The position numbers were made by a program, and so were the translations under genes. From Bacillota bacterium (GTDB lineage: Bacteria > Bacillota > Limnochordia > Darwinibacteriales > Darwinibacteriaceae), in contig JAAYMS010000077.1 in the NCBI GenBank assembly GCA_012521295.1, forward strand, positions 1 through 35,708: a stretch of 35,708 bases of DNA, given 5' to 3'. Positions within the stretch are counted from its first letter, which is position 1. Each line of letters starts with the position of its first letter. The notes beneath the pieces are model-generated. The model was not told the origin of the DNA. It made no database searches and was given only the letters and a program-made list of their open reading frames with translations. Below are positions 13,608-23,836 of this stretch, in pieces.

Positions 13608-14606
13608 CTAGCGTCGCAGAAGGACGGCAAACATCAAAAGCCCGACCACCCCTATAATAGGGTATCCAAACTCGATTAATGAACCAAAGCCCAGCTCAGA
13701 TAGGGACAACCCCAAGAATAGCACGAGGCCAATCGACAAAGGTTTTCCTAATGTAGTTTGGTGAGTGATGCGATTTACAAGCGCGAAAGCATGAGCAAGA
13801 GCAGTACTGAACATCGCAGCCAACAGCATAACAGAAGATCCTATCTTAAAGAGAGGTCCGAGCCTTTCTGCTAGGACGAGCATGGGCATGTTTGATTGTG
13901 TATCTGTAATAGGCTCTGACCATATGCTCAATGCAATTGTCAGGAGCAGTATAATCACTATCCCGTTTCCCAATAGTGCGGCACTCCATATCTGCCCGTT
14001 GGTCTTTAGCTTGTGATGAAACGCCGAGAGCACTGCCATAGACAGACACAGATTGTAGGAGGAATAGAGAAGGGCCGCCCCTATGCCGAGCGGTACCCCA
14101 TCTTGTGGCAAGATTATTCCTGTGTCAGTCAGCGTCCTAGCGGCCGGAAGAATGAGAAGAACTGCGATCGGAGGCGTAAGCAGAGCACCGATGTCCAGCA
14201 GGCGGTCTGACCCTTGGTAGATCAGCATGCCGACCGCCAGTGCAGTTGCAATGGAGCCGCCTCCGATCGCAAACAGCTCTGCTACTAGGTCACCGCATCC
14301 TGCAAGCATCACTGCCAAGCCAATCAAGGCAAACATGCTGTAGACAATGTCAAGGTAGGGGGCCAGTCTTGGGCTCTGCTTATAGATGAAGTCAGCATAA
14401 GATCGTGCATCCTGTGACTTGCTGCGGTTAATGATGAGAACAGTCCCCATGACGAGAAATCCGAAGCTGACTGCGATGCCAACCAGCCCGCCCTTCCCGT
14501 ACCGAACAAAGAAGCGCATGATCTCCTGGCCCGAGGCAAAGCCGGCGCCAATGAAGGCGGCAGCGTAGAAGGACGCTACACTGACAACGTTTCTGAACAC
14601 AGACAT
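13608..14606 (-). CDS. YkvI-like integral membrane protein, putative transporter
   Basis: ASFYAAAFIGAGFASGQEIMRFFVRYGKGGLVGI and multiple TM segments. Confidence 0.7.
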   Translation of the reverse strand: MSVFRNVVSVASFYAAAFIGAGFASGQEIMRFFVRYGKGGLVGIAVSFGFLVMGTVLIINRSKSQDARSYADFIYKQSPRLAPYLDIVYSMFALIGLAVMLAGCGDLVAELFAIGGGSIATALAVGMLIYQGSDRLLDIGALLTPPIAVLLILPAARTLTDTGIILPQDGVPLGIGAALLYSSYNLCLSMAVLSAFHHKLKTNGQIWSAALLGNGIVIILLLTIALSIWSEPITDTQSNMPMLVLAERLGPLFKIGSSVMLLAAMFSTALAHAFALVNRITHQTTLGKPLSIGLVLFLGLSLSELGFGSLIEFGYPIIGVVGLLMFAVLLRR

Positions 14607-17961: not shown

Positions 17962-18696
17962 CTAGAGTGGCTTCTTAGAAGGAGTTCCTGCTCGCCTCGG
18001 ATAGCACTTCTTTGTGGGTGCGTCTTTCTTGATTACTATCAATGTGCGGTCTCCCATTCCGAGGGGAAGCTCAAGGTTCACGACCTCCGCAATGGAACTA
18101 CCGAGTTCCCGCAGTGCCCTTCCACTTTCTTCCATTTCTTGAGTTCCTTCAGCACCCTTCATCGCAATGAACAGACCGCCAACCCTCAAGAGGGGGATAC
18201 AGAGTTCCACAAGAATAGGAAGCCTAGCAACGGCTCTACTGACAACTAGGTCGAACTGTCCGCGAAGCTCGTGATCCTGACCAGCGTCTTCAGCGCGGGC
18301 ATGGAGTGTGCGAGCGTTTGTAATCCCTAAAGCGTCAAGCGCCTCATCAATGAATGACAGCTTTTTCTTCAGAGAATCAAGCAAGATGAAGTCCCATCCC
18401 GGCCGACAGATGGCTAGGGGAACTCCAGGAAATCCGGCACCAGTCCCAACATCAATACATCGTAGATTTCCTGCAGGGAGCTTAACCAAGAGGCAGGCTA
18501 GACTGTCGACGAAATGCTTGATCGCCATCTCCTGCGGTTCTGTAATGCGCGTCAGATTAAGCCTCTCGTTGCCCTCCAGTACCATCTGGGCGAATCGGAG
18601 CATCCTCGCCTGCTGTTCATCCAGCACTTCGATGCCCCATTCATCAAAGCCTGTCTGGAGTGCCCTTCGAAACTCAGACGCGAAACTATCATTCAT
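17962..18696 (-). CDS. rsmG: 16S rRNA (guanine527-N7)-methyltransferase
   Basis: NLTRITEPQEMAIKHFVDSLACL...CIDVGTGAGFPGVPLAICRPGWDFILLDSLKKKLSFI. Confidence 0.95.
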   Translation of the reverse strand: MNDSFASEFRRALQTGFDEWGIEVLDEQQARMLRFAQMVLEGNERLNLTRITEPQEMAIKHFVDSLACLLVKLPAGNLRCIDVGTGAGFPGVPLAICRPGWDFILLDSLKKKLSFIDEALDALGITNARTLHARAEDAGQDHELRGQFDLVVSRAVARLPILVELCIPLLRVGGLFIAMKGAEGTQEMEESGRALRELGSSIAEVVNLELPLGMGDRTLIVIKKDAPTKKCYPRRAGTPSKKPL

Positions 18697-20569
18697 CTAC
18701 GCTGCCTCCCCGTTTTTGAGTTTCAAGAAAGATAATGAGCACGTTAACATCAGCCGGAGTGACTCCTGAGATCCGTGCAGCTTGGCCCAAGGAACGCGGT
18801 TTGACCATATTCAGCCGCTCGGCCGCTTCACGTGAGAGCCCTTTGATTCCTGCATAATCCACGTTTTCAGGAAGCAGCTTCGCCTCCATCTTCTCAAAGC
18901 GCTCGATTGCAGCCTCTTGCTTTTTCAAGTAACCTTCGTACTTGACCAAAATCTCCACGGACTTGCGGACATTCTCAGGCAATTCCGGAAGCTCGCCCAA
19001 CTCCCCAAGGTGTGCGTACGAGATTTCCGGGCGCCTCAATAGCTCGGCAAGCGTAACCCCATGCCGCAGCTCTGCTGTTCCAAGCCGCCGAAGAATGATA
19101 TTGGTTTCAGTATCGCCACCTACTGGAGTTTCCTTCAGGCGCTTCACTTCTAACTCAATCTGCTCCTGCTTCTTCTGGAATGCAGCATAGCGTTCTTCGC
19201 TGATCAACCCGAGCTCGTAACCAAGGGGAGTAAGCCTTGCATCGGCATTGTCCATCCGGAGGTACAGTCTGTGTTCGGCACGGGAGGTCATAATCCGATA
19301 GGGTTCATTTGTCCCCTTTGTCACCAGATCATCGATCATGACACCGATGTAAGCCTGAGAACGGGGGATGATCACTGGGTCTTCGCCGTTCAAGTATTTC
19401 ACCGCATTGATGCCGGCGATTATCCCCTGCGCAGCAGCCTCTTCATAGCCCGACGTACCATTGATCTGGCCGGCACAGAACAGGCCAGCTATCTCTTTGG
19501 TCATCAGTGAGCTGTAGAGACTGAAGGGATCGAGGCAGTCATATTCAATCGCATAGGCCCAGCGCATAATCTCCGCATTCTCCAGCCCAGGGACAGTTCT
19601 CAAGATCTCGACCTGCAGCTCGGTAGGCATAGAAGTCGACAAGCCGCTCAAGTAGCCTTCATTAGTCTGCCATCCTTCGGGCTCGATGAATACCTGGTGA
19701 CTCGTTTTATCAGGAAACTGCACAATCTTGCTCTCAATCGATGGGCAGTATCTCGGGCCGGGCCCAGTAATGGCCCCGCTGTACATGGCAGCCCGGTGCA
19801 GATTATCCCGGATGATCTTGTGCGTCTCCTCTGTCGTATAAGTGACCCAGCATGGGACTTGTTCGATCTCTATCGAACCGGTTTCGAAAGAAAAACCTTC
19901 TAGCGGAGATTCTCCTTCTAGCTTGGACAACTTGCTGTAATCTAACGAGCGCAGATTAACACGTGGTGGTGTTCCCGTCTTAAAGCGCACTATAGGAAGC
20001 AGATCGCGCAGGTTTCGCGCTAGGTCAATCGATGGACGCTGCCCCTGCGGAGCACCGGAATAGCGAACCTCACCAATGTGAATTTCCGAGTCAAGATAAG
20101 TGCCTGTTGCCAGTATAACAACATCGCTGTAGAGCGTAGTGCCATCCTGGAGCTTAACACCTGCAGCATGACCGTTTTCAACGAGCAGCCTAGTCACCAA
20201 ACCTTCCTTCAAGAAAAGGTTAGGGGTTGTCTCGAGAACGTACTTCATGCGGCGCTGGTATAGCTTGCGATCCAGCTGCACCCGTAGGGATTGGACAGCA
20301 GGGCCTTTACGTGTATTAAGCATCCGGCCCTGCATCAAAGTGGCATCGCAATTCTTACCCATTTCGCCGCCCAAGGCATCAACTTCTCTAACAAGCGCCG
20401 CCTTGCCAGAGCCTCCTATGGAAGGGTTGCAGGGGAGCAGAGCTACATTATCTAGACTGAGAGTAAGAACCGCTGTTCTTTTCCCCATCTTAGCGGCAGC
20501 CAGACCCGCTTCACAGCCAGCATGGCCTGCTCCAACCACGATCACATCGTAGCGATCATGCAGAGACAT
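18689..20569 (-). CDS. mnmG: MnmG/GidA paralog B (downstream copy), tRNA uridine-5-carboxymethylaminomethyl modification
   Basis: YDVIVVGAGHAGCEAGLAAAKMG; CNPSIGGSGKAALVREVDALGG; RYCPSIESKIVQFPDK; AGQINGTSGYEEAAAQGIIAG; start trimmed to ATG 20569, 14-bp overlap with copy A. Confidence 0.92.
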   Translation of the reverse strand: MSLHDRYDVIVVGAGHAGCEAGLAAAKMGKRTAVLTLSLDNVALLPCNPSIGGSGKAALVREVDALGGEMGKNCDATLMQGRMLNTRKGPAVQSLRVQLDRKLYQRRMKYVLETTPNLFLKEGLVTRLLVENGHAAGVKLQDGTTLYSDVVILATGTYLDSEIHIGEVRYSGAPQGQRPSIDLARNLRDLLPIVRFKTGTPPRVNLRSLDYSKLSKLEGESPLEGFSFETGSIEIEQVPCWVTYTTEETHKIIRDNLHRAAMYSGAITGPGPRYCPSIESKIVQFPDKTSHQVFIEPEGWQTNEGYLSGLSTSMPTELQVEILRTVPGLENAEIMRWAYAIEYDCLDPFSLYSSLMTKEIAGLFCAGQINGTSGYEEAAAQGIIAGINAVKYLNGEDPVIIPRSQAYIGVMIDDLVTKGTNEPYRIMTSRAEHRLYLRMDNADARLTPLGYELGLISEERYAAFQKKQEQIELEVKRLKETPVGGDTETNIILRRLGTAELRHGVTLAELLRRPEISYAHLGELGELPELPENVRKSVEILVKYEGYLKKQEAAIERFEKMEAKLLPENVDYAGIKGLSREAAERLNMVKPRSLGQAARISGVTPADVNVLIIFLETQKRGGSVDE

Positions 20570-22430
20570 ACTTGTCCACATCCTTTAATACCACAGCCAA
20601 CACACTGATATCTGCTGGGGATACTCCTGAGATTCGAGCAGCCTGGCCTAAATTGACGGGCCGCACTGCTGTGAGTCTTTCCCGTGCTTCAGTTCGCAAA
20701 CCATGGATTTTCATGTAATCGATATTATCAGGGATCTTGACATCCTCTAGGCGCTGAAACTCGGCTACCTGCCGCAGCTGACGCTCGACATAACCTGCGT
20801 ACTTCACCGAAATCTCAACCTGCTCGATGACTTCACCTGGAAGTTCAGGGCAATCGGCAAAGAACTTCAAGTCAGCAAACGAAAGTTCTGGCCGCTGCAG
20901 CAGATCCGCCAAACTGACGCTTTTCTTTAAATCTCCAGAGCCCAACTCCTGGAGTTTAGCCCGAACTTCAGCGGTCGGATTGACACGTGTAACATTCAAC
21001 CAATTAATGGTCTCGTTGATTAGGCGGCGTTTGTCGTTGAAACGTGCAAACTGTTCTTCTCCGACTAGGCCCAACTTGTAGCCAAGAGGCCGAAGCCGGA
21101 GATCAGCATTGTCGACTCTTAAAAGCAGGCGGTATTCGGCCCGCGAAGTCATCATCCGATACGGCTCAGTGGTTCCCTTAGTGACCAAGTCATCTACCAG
21201 GACACCGATGTAAGCTTCGGAGCGCCGCAGGATCACAGGCTCTTTACCCAGCACTTTGTGAGCGGCATTAATGCCCGCGATTATACCCTGAGCGGCCGCC
21301 TCTTCATAACCAGAAGTGCCGTTGATCTGTCCGGCAGTGAAAAGCCCAGACACAACCCGCGACTCTAGGCTTAGCGTCATCTGTGAAGGTGGTATATAGT
21401 CATATTCAACTGCATAACCAGGGCGCATGATTTTCGCATGTTCTAATCCTGGAATGGACCGGACGATCTCTTCTTGCACATACTCAGGCATAGCCGTAGT
21501 TAATCCCAAGCAGTAGAGTTCCTTGGTATAGCGCCCTTCTGGTTCTAAGAAAACTTGATGATCAAGTTTGTCCGGAAAACGCATCACTTTTCGGTCAATT
21601 GATGGGCAGAAACGAGGGCCTTCGCCGACAACGCTGCCGCTCTGAATTGGCGAATGATGCAGGTTATCCCGAATGACTTCAATTGTCTTGGGTGTGGTAC
21701 GTGTGTACCAGCACGGAATCTGCGGCCGATCGTCGTGGTCTGAATCGAAAGAAAAGCGCAGAGGGACAGGACTACCCGGCTGCTCCGTCAGTTTTTCGTA
21801 ATCTACGCTATCAGCATGAAGGCGGGGAGGAGTCGCGCTTTGGAACCGCGATAGCTCGATTCCTAGGCTTTCGAGGTTTTCAGAAAGCTCATTTACCCCC
21901 GGCTCTCCTGCACGTCCGCCCGGATAGCGCAGCTGCCCAACAACCAAGACTCCCCGCAGGAACGTCCCAGTTGCCAGAATAACAGCGGGAGCGGTAAACT
22001 CCACACCGTGCTTGGTCTTCACGCCTTGAACAGCGCCGTCTTCTACCAAGATCTCTGTTACAATTCCCTGCCGGACATCAAGGTTGGGCGCACTCTCCAG
22101 CGCCTGAGTCATCAGACTCTGATATAGCACTTTATCGGCTTGGGCTCTGAGTGCGCGGACGGCAGGGCCGCGGCTTTCATTGAGCAGGCGAATATTCAAA
22201 AATGAATTATCTATAATTCTGCCCATCAATCCTCCAAGGGCATCTATTTCGCGCACCAAGTGACTCTTCGCTGCTGGCCCTCCGATGGCCGGATTGCAGG
22301 GCATCAAGGCAATCGTGCTTAGATTTATAGTCAAGAGCAGAGTCCTGCAGCCTAGTTTGGCCGCAGCATAGGCCGCTTCACATCCTGCATGACCTGCTCC
22401 AACGACAATTACGTCATAGTTCTTGCTCAT
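20556..22430 (-). CDS. mnmG: MnmG/GidA paralog A (upstream copy, next to mnmE)
   Basis: YDVIVVGAGHAGCEAAYAAAKLG; CNPAIGGPAAKSHLVREIDALGG; GPAVRALRAQADKVLYQ; RFCPSIDRKVMRFPDK; AGQINGTSGYEEAAAQG. Confidence 0.94.
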   Translation of the reverse strand: MSKNYDVIVVGAGHAGCEAAYAAAKLGCRTLLLTINLSTIALMPCNPAIGGPAAKSHLVREIDALGGLMGRIIDNSFLNIRLLNESRGPAVRALRAQADKVLYQSLMTQALESAPNLDVRQGIVTEILVEDGAVQGVKTKHGVEFTAPAVILATGTFLRGVLVVGQLRYPGGRAGEPGVNELSENLESLGIELSRFQSATPPRLHADSVDYEKLTEQPGSPVPLRFSFDSDHDDRPQIPCWYTRTTPKTIEVIRDNLHHSPIQSGSVVGEGPRFCPSIDRKVMRFPDKLDHQVFLEPEGRYTKELYCLGLTTAMPEYVQEEIVRSIPGLEHAKIMRPGYAVEYDYIPPSQMTLSLESRVVSGLFTAGQINGTSGYEEAAAQGIIAGINAAHKVLGKEPVILRRSEAYIGVLVDDLVTKGTTEPYRMMTSRAEYRLLLRVDNADLRLRPLGYKLGLVGEEQFARFNDKRRLINETINWLNVTRVNPTAEVRAKLQELGSGDLKKSVSLADLLQRPELSFADLKFFADCPELPGEVIEQVEISVKYAGYVERQLRQVAEFQRLEDVKIPDNIDYMKIHGLRTEARERLTAVRPVNLGQAARISGVSPADISVLAVVLKDVDKYVSA

Positions 22431-22438
22431 GCTTGCTC

Positions 22439-23836
22439 CTACTTTCCAATACAGAATTGGGCAAAAATCCGGTCGATAATGTTCTCCCGGACAGTTTCTC
22501 CAGTGATCTCACCAAGATGCTCCAATGCACCCTGCAGCCCCACAGAGATGAGGTCTAGAGGTAACCCCATAGACAACGTCTCTAGGGCGTTCTCTAAGTC
22601 AGCCTTCGCTTCCTCAAGGGCTGTTTTATGTCGAGCCCGGGTCACAATTGCTTGACTGGCTGTGCTCTCCCTGATACCGCCCTTGCTGACCAACCCAACT
22701 ACGGCATCGACTAACGGAGTAAGCTCGCCTTCCAGCAGTGACATTTCGACTACAGGTGCTTCTCCCAAATCTCTCGCATCTAGGTCATCAAGACTCCAAA
22801 CCCGCGGTAGGTCAGATTTATTAATTACCACAACCCGGAGTTTATCTCTCGTTCTAGCCAGGATTTCCCGGTCTTCGCTGCTTAAGGGCACGCTGCCATC
22901 CATCACGTGGATAATCAAATCGGCCTCACCCCAAAGCTGCACAGCGCGTTCCACACCGAGACGTTCTACCACATCGTCGCTTTCGCGGATGCCGGCTGTG
23001 TCAATCAACCGCAGGGGAATGCCCCGCAGATTTAAGACTTCTTCAATTGTGTCTCGCGTTGTGCCGGGGATGTCTGTGACTAAAGCACGCTGTTCATCGA
23101 GAAGGCGGTTGAGCAAACTAGACTTACCCACATTAGGCTTGCCCGTAATGACAGCTTTGAGGCCTTCACGCAGAACCTTGCCTTGATCGGCAGTGGCAAT
23201 CAACCGCTCCAGCTCCCCAATTACTGTACGAATAACCTCTGCCATCTCGTCAACTTCCAGCTCAGGTATGTCATCTTCGGGATAATCAATGATTGCTTCT
23301 ACACGCACAACCAAATCATAGAGCTGTTCACGAATGGCGCTGATCCGCTTACTGAGACTGCCCTCTAGCTGATCTACCGCCACCGCAAGGCTCTCTTCAG
23401 TACGCGAGCGAACCACATCAATGACCGCCTCGGCCTGCGACAGGTCTAGGCGGCCATTCAAGAATGCTCGTTTGGTGAACTCTCCAGGTTCAGCCATACG
23501 GGCTCCTAAACGCAGGGCTGTTTCTAAGATCTTCTGCACTACAACAACGCCACCGTGGCATTGAAACTCTACCACATCTTCGCCCGTATAGGAATAGGGG
23601 CCCCGCATAACCAGCAGAATAGCTTCATCTATTGTGCGCCCTTGATAGGGATCGACCACTCGGCCGTAGCGCGCTGAATAACCAGGAAGACTCTTTGGAG
23701 AATCTCCCCGTTTTGTGACAAACATTTTCTCTGCAATATCAAAAGCCTCTTTACCGCTGAGGCGTACGATACCGATTCCGGCTTCTCCAACAGCAGTAGC
23801 GATTGCAGCTATAGTCTGTTCTGTCAAGCTGATCAC
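22439..23836 (-). CDS. mnmE: tRNA modification GTPase MnmE
   Basis: TIAAIATAVGEAGIGIVRLSGKEA; GKPNVGKSSLLNRLLDEQRALVTDIPGTTRDTIEE; C-terminal FCIGK. Confidence 0.96.
   Translation of the reverse strand: MISLTEQTIAAIATAVGEAGIGIVRLSGKEAFDIAEKMFVTKRGDSPKSLPGYSARYGRVVDPYQGRTIDEAILLVMRGPYSYTGEDVVEFQCHGGVVVVQKILETALRLGARMAEPGEFTKRAFLNGRLDLSQAEAVIDVVRSRTEESLAVAVDQLEGSLSKRISAIREQLYDLVVRVEAIIDYPEDDIPELEVDEMAEVIRTVIGELERLIATADQGKVLREGLKAVITGKPNVGKSSLLNRLLDEQRALVTDIPGTTRDTIEEVLNLRGIPLRLIDTAGIRESDDVVERLGVERAVQLWGEADLIIHVMDGSVPLSSEDREILARTRDKLRVVVINKSDLPRVWSLDDLDARDLGEAPVVEMSLLEGELTPLVDAVVGLVSKGGIRESTASQAIVTRARHKTALEEAKADLENALETLSMGLPLDLISVGLQGALEHLGEITGETVRENIIDRIFAQFCIGK

Follow-up and report, generated by a model that had tools for sequence, protein, structure and literature searches.

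Bacterial MnmG (GidA) is a flavoprotein that works with the GTPase MnmE on the wobble uridine (U34) of tRNA, and the prevailing treatment is of one such enzyme per genome. A single E. coli MnmEG has two products, nm5 when it uses ammonium and cmnm5 when it uses glycine, and which of them forms depends on the tRNA and on growth (PMC3936742), and in Gram-positive bacteria MnmM methylates nm5 to mnm5 (PMC9976899). One tRNA is bound per MnmG dimer (PMC4027165). In the solved complex with MnmE the MnmG dimer is asymmetric, and the authors of that structure suggest that one MnmG subunit serves MnmE and the other the tRNA; the C-terminal carboxylate of MnmE touches MnmG K283, and MnmG-specific motif 1 (residues 273–287), which contains residues 281–282 beside C277, becomes ordered upon MnmE binding (PMC12397908). 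Against this background we describe a locus with two mnmG genes in tandem, here called copy A and copy B. It lies in a stretch of 35,708 nucleotides of contig JAAYMS010000077.1 from a Bacillota bacterium of the class Limnochordia, and this whole stretch is referred to as the window. A search of the literature for two mnmG or gidA genes found nothing relevant.

Two intact mnmG genes between mnmE and rsmG

Four genes follow one another on the minus strand of the window: mnmE (22439..23836), mnmG copy A (20556..22430; 624 aa), mnmG copy B (18689..20569; 626 aa) and rsmG (gidB; 17962..18696), the last of which closes the conserved block on its downstream side. An earlier note on this DNA had reported two complete tandem mnmG genes between mnmE and rsmG with a 14-base overlap, and this description holds, the overlap being counted from the copy B ATG at 20569; the longest open reading frame of copy B begins at 20581 and encodes 630 aa. 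The sequence AAGGA precedes the ATG at 20569 and lies inside the 3′ end of copy A. There is a gap of 8 bases from mnmE to copy A, and copy B overlaps rsmG by 8 bases. Because the mnmE–A, A–B and B–rsmG junctions are all equally tight, the layout argues for a single mnmE–A–B–rsmG operon; a scan of the A/B junction for strong terminator-like sites found none, which is weak evidence. The flanking genes match their family models (MnmE, TIGR00450, 434 bits; RsmG, TIGR00138, 161 bits), and the translated mnmE reading frame ends in FCIGK. The genome as a whole has exactly two MnmG proteins, one short TrmFO-like match and one MnmE only. Elsewhere in the window, Pfam and NCBIfam gave no match for a 332 aa open reading frame at 13608–14606 on the minus strand, which is flanked by a ParB-type gene and a gene for a TPR protein.

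Both copies have the features of complete MnmG proteins. First, both exceed the curated TIGR00136 cut-off of 525 bits over their full length, with 827 bits for copy A and 826 for copy B; the NCBI model thus scores the two alike as mnmG, and the difference between them is easily overlooked. Second, three MnmG Pfam domains span each copy from end to end, and the C-terminal MnmE-binding helical domain is present in copy A, as indicated by matches to PF13932 and PF21680 and by the MnmG fold of its model. Third, the AlphaFold model of copy A has a mean pLDDT of 89 and TM scores of 0.89–0.91 to 2zxi, 3cp8 and 9hip. Finally, the FAD motif (GxGxxG) and the two catalytic cysteines, C47 and C277, which the earlier note had seen in both proteins, are invariant across the A and B copies. 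Since A and B alike retain the FAD-binding site, the two cysteines and most of the MnmE contacts, both copies probably work with the sole MnmE.

Neither copy is a pseudogene. Between the window and its two closest relatives dN is 0.10–0.13 for copy A and 0.11–0.13 for copy B, with synonymous sites near saturation, and all 39 A copies have the residues that mark copy A (see below). Copy A is by a slight margin the slower-evolving of the two: this holds for 232 of 253 genome pairs within the window's class and for 73 of 78 pairs within families f54 and f107, which belong to a second class (that of genome G245). By these rates copy A is under strong purifying selection and is not decaying. Nor is the tandem due to chance or to misassembly, as the same arrangement is present in independent assemblies (L004 and L005, 83–85% identity) and in 47 genomes overall. 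A recent duplication is likewise ruled out: A and B are 52% identical in the window and about 50–58% identical overall, and they fall in separate clades.

Distribution of the tandem pair

Across three separate Bacillota groups, 47 genomes have the order mnmE–A–B–rsmG, 30 in the window's class, 13 in the class of G245 and four in family f110, where the order is the same, G259 included. The co-occurrence survey proposed in the earlier note thus gives a uniform answer: each of the 47 genomes with A also has B, and A is never found without it. MnmG was found in 57 of the 73 genomes of the window's class, as a pair in 30 and as one copy in 27; partial MnmG pieces in G030, G031, G034, G053 and G055 are consistent with contig ends. 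Within the window's own family only three species, from two genera, have the pair, and the remaining MnmG-bearing genera have B only; the closest named relative of the window is Peptococcaceae bacterium 1109 (L004). Among the 59 genomes of the class of G245, the tandem is present in all 13 of families f54 and f107 and in none elsewhere. A DNA pattern for the copy A motif CPSIDRK, scanned against 399 genomes of the phylum, matched only in the window's class, in f54/f107 and in the four f110 genomes, apart from three stray matches whose translations differ (CPRIDSK, CPWIDRK). The earlier note had allowed that a dual mnmG might prove common in this lineage, already described and equivalent in function. 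Common it is, but the literature searched does not describe it, and in sequence the two copies are not equivalent.

Several other arrangements were encountered. MnmE and MnmG are both undetected in the same 16 of the 73 genomes of the window's class (G009, G026 and G059–G072), three of which are single-contig genomes (G063, G065 and G066), such that the U34 MnmEG pathway is apparently missing from whole families of this class. G043 is the sole genome of the window's class with an additional full-length MnmE (404 bits), which lies off the operon (C384:2462–3820). Two genomes of family f117 have a second, unlinked MnmG. In G295, one MnmG (L242) adjoins mnmE and a second (L243) lies elsewhere, possibly a parallel divergence. 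G114 (family f58) has a very divergent, truncated MnmG-like open reading frame of 480 aa between mnmE and a normal mnmG (L195:2438–3877); it is 42–44% identical, its C-terminal MnmE-binding part is unmatched, and in the tree its very long branch lies outside the A clade.

Origin of copy A

The phylogeny that the earlier note had called for separates the two copies. In a maximum-likelihood tree of 74 proteins the A copies form a single clade (100/100), which sits within a 100/99 group together with MnmG of the class of G245. The B copies of the window's class group instead with the single-copy MnmG of that class, in the 74-protein tree and also with 121 rows, and copy B is the resident MnmG. 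From the alliance of A with MnmG of the class of G245 we infer that A probably originated there, by tandem duplication in the f54/f107 lineage, and that A alone was probably then transferred to the window's class and to f110, where it was inserted beside the resident gene; the direction of transfer is the probable one. Confining the duplication to the f54/f107 lineage is not rejected (p 0.52) and gives a marginally better fit. A duplication before the split of the two classes and common to both, for which A is constrained to lie outside all B copies, is 47 log units worse and is rejected, though not overwhelmingly, at p-AU 0.014. The mnmE tree follows the species, which rules out a co-transfer of mnmE with A, and sliding identity rules out a chimeric A/B gene in the single-copy relatives.

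Distances of A, B and mnmE are tightly correlated within groups (0.91–0.97), as would be expected of long co-inheritance.

Signature residues of copy A

A comparison of 39 full A copies with 116 non-A copies, in E. coli MnmG numbering, yields a set of residues peculiar to A. Eight substitutions (Q80N, P174R, K198Q, G200A, E281D, D282R, S313T and I343V) are fixed, such that N80, R174, Q198, A200, D281, R282, T313 and V343 are present in 39 of 39 A copies, and a ninth, L316M, gives M316 in 38 of 39. The canonical residue is present in about 91–100% of non-A copies at these positions, D282 being more variable; E281 is found in 116 of 116, and Q80, K198, G200, S313, L316 and I343 are almost uniform. 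R174 is also present in E. coli MnmG, and the diagnostic residues of A are N80, Q198, A200, D281–R282, T313, M316 and V343. Taking Q80, K198, G200 and E281 as a working definition of the canonical subgroup, the A copies have N, Q, A and D in 39 of 39 and copy B of the window has all four canonical residues. A similar comparison of the B copies for a fixed signature of their own found nothing comparable.

In the window these residues are encoded, all on the minus strand, by the codon for N79 (22194..22196; Q80 in E. coli), by Q-S-A at residues 197–199 (21834..21842; E. coli K198-T199-G200), by CPSIDRK within motif 1 (21588..21608; canonical CPSIEDK, the first residue being equivalent to catalytic C277), by T311 to M314 (21489..21500; E. 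coli S313 and L316) and by V341 (21408..21410; E. coli I343). The A copies also keep C47, C277, K283, R427, S431 and Y551, with either R or K at 554. Those of the window's class further have R88, and an Ala is inserted into their C47 loop.

Other differences named in the earlier note are less general. The extra Ala of the C47 loop marks A copies from the window's class and from f110 and not all A copies. The segment AVQSLR, put forward as distinguishing the two copies, does so only in part, being partly lineage drift and common to single-copy relatives. SRAEHR is not a mark of B, as Y435 is His in only five of the 25 B copies of the window's class. A further variable residue is R432, near the MnmE interface: among the 25 B copies from A-bearing genomes of the window's class, 14 have Leu or His there, and Arg is present in all 18 single copies of family f1 (the window's family) and in nearly all others.

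Positions 198, 200 and 313 depart jointly from the canonical residues in three single-copy or operon MnmG proteins (S-N-T, M-T-F and E-D-F in L163, L242 and L251). This co-change suggests that the three positions touch each other as neighbors in one pocket. It also shows that a few single-copy enzymes have other residues in place of K198 and G200, so that such changes alone need not alter function.

MnmM and the gcv genes

Genomes with copy A often lack MnmM. In the class of G245, MnmM is absent from eight of 13 A-bearing genomes and from five of 46 without A (Fisher p 5e-4); when the genomes without A are restricted to those at least 90% complete, the latter count is one of 36 (p 2e-5). Relatedness is ignored in both tests. 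MnmM is present in two of the 19 genomes with A in the phylum sample and in 174 of the 380 without it, again ignoring relatedness, and in about 44% of the sample overall. However, no MnmM (PF06962) was detected in any of the 73 genomes of the window's class, with or without A, which indicates that a lack of MnmM does not make A necessary. Since relatedness is ignored in these counts and single-copy members of the window's class have neither A nor MnmM, the association of A with loss of the downstream enzyme is a lead, and not independent enough to prove function.

The earlier note had also paired the tandem with the nearby gcv operon. This is not supported: gcvP is found in 72 of the 73 genomes of that class, irrespective of whether they have two, one or no MnmG, and lies near single-copy mnmG as well (e.g. 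in G022). As gcv does not track A, it is ruled out as a discriminating link.

Possible functions of MnmG-A

On sequence grounds, copy A is a member of a second, old and conserved MnmG subfamily, here called MnmG-A. The reading we favor, with about even confidence, is that it is an MnmE-dependent isozyme whose pocket has been remodeled and which differs from B in its U34 output or in its range of tRNAs. A and B would be produced from one operon and share the single MnmE. Like B, A would bind FAD, take the methylene delivered by the C-terminal FCIGK helix of MnmE and modify tRNA at U34, and its fixed changes, some of them beside catalytic C277, would give it another output. That output could be the use of another amine acceptor, glycine versus ammonium being the obvious split, or of another tRNA subset. 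As one E. coli MnmEG makes two products, the economical proposal is that the pair divides nm5 and cmnm5 outputs, or tRNAs, between its members. The proposal starts from observed features: the gene order, the intactness of both genes, the single MnmE, the monophyly of A, its fixed signature and purifying selection, and the presence of A only together with B although B is often without A. From these the activity of A, its binding of MnmE and tRNA, the placement of the signature in a pocket and the type of output are each predicted. Whatever its role, it is not essential, because A is absent (lost or never held) from most genera of the window's family and B is kept.

A second possibility, which we regard as tentative, is that A pairs with B in a heterodimer, either obligately or by preference, and that each copy has specialized for one role of the asymmetric MnmG dimer, in which one subunit would engage MnmE and FAD and the other may hold tRNA. 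The near-equimolar layout, with an A/B spacing of −26 to +66 bases at most loci, and the constant company of B would suit such a pairing, as would the known asymmetry of the dimer in the MnmE complex. Moreover, the f1 genomes without A have changed at two of 25 columns with a fixed A/B difference (K88R and K554R), both toward the A residue and both at MnmE contacts, in contrast to no changes at 174 columns where A and B are the same. Nonetheless, K to R is a conservative change and these lie on one branch, B alone suffices in close relatives, and the A–B distance correlation (0.96) is not above that of A with mnmE (0.97). The conserved MnmE interface departs more in A in the window's class and more in B in f54/f107. 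A consistent loss of MnmE binding in either copy was sought at the contact residues and none was seen, and a clean division in which A docks MnmE and B binds tRNA is rejected for want of a consistent pattern at the interface positions. Two bolder forms are together conceivable but doubtful: a natural two-subunit MnmG, with the methylene from MnmE going to one subunit and the tRNA being held or finished by its partner, or a different 5-substituent made by A at U34 that would let A-bearing lineages do without MnmM. If A and B do pair, the asymmetric-dimer model becomes directly testable.

It is unlikely that A is simply a redundant, laterally acquired isoenzyme of the same function, kept for dosage and with neutral or compensatory differences. 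It is dispensable in many relatives, scores equally with B on the MnmG model and was probably gained by transfer, all as redundancy would have it; but eight positions are identical across 39 copies from three groups, and A evolves more slowly than B, persists across whole orders and never replaces it. Least probable is that A has left the standard U34 reaction and acts as an MnmE-coupled flavoenzyme on another nucleotide or on the product of B. A role such as further processing of the 5-substituent could explain the frequent absence of MnmM and its lower counts in A-bearing genomes, but A retains the two catalytic cysteines and its contacts with MnmE, the window's class is without MnmM whether or not A is present, and the independent losses of MnmM are few.

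With its common changes at near-invariant residues, present throughout entire families of Bacillota, MnmG-A offers a natural mutant series for those steps of the reaction that are understood least: the choice between glycine and ammonium, the asymmetric use of the dimer and the selection of tRNAs.

Comparison with known systems

The closest described protein is canonical MnmG (E. coli MnmG, PDB 9hip and 3ces), which copy A resembles in its full length, three domains and FAD motif, in C47, C277, motif 1 and the MnmE-contact residues, in its operon with mnmE and rsmG, and in its predicted fold. It differs at N80, Q198, A200, D281–R282, T313, M316 and V343, and always coexists with a canonical copy. 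TrmFO, the small form of the GidA family that methylates tRNA U54, shares with it a common flavoprotein ancestry and a chemistry based on folate-derived methylene (PMC9626948). Copy A is set apart from TrmFO by its full length of 624 aa and its C-terminal MnmE-binding domains, and it scores only 84 bits on the TrmFO model, against a cut-off of 429. MTO1 and GTPBP3, the mitochondrial counterparts of MnmG and MnmE, are the same enzyme pair with comparable interface residues (PMC12397908), but MTO1 is a single partner where A and B are two. We know of no tandem second subfamily for MTO1/GTPBP3. MnmG-A, not named as such in the literature searched, is a widespread and conserved second MnmG subfamily with a putatively distinct function.
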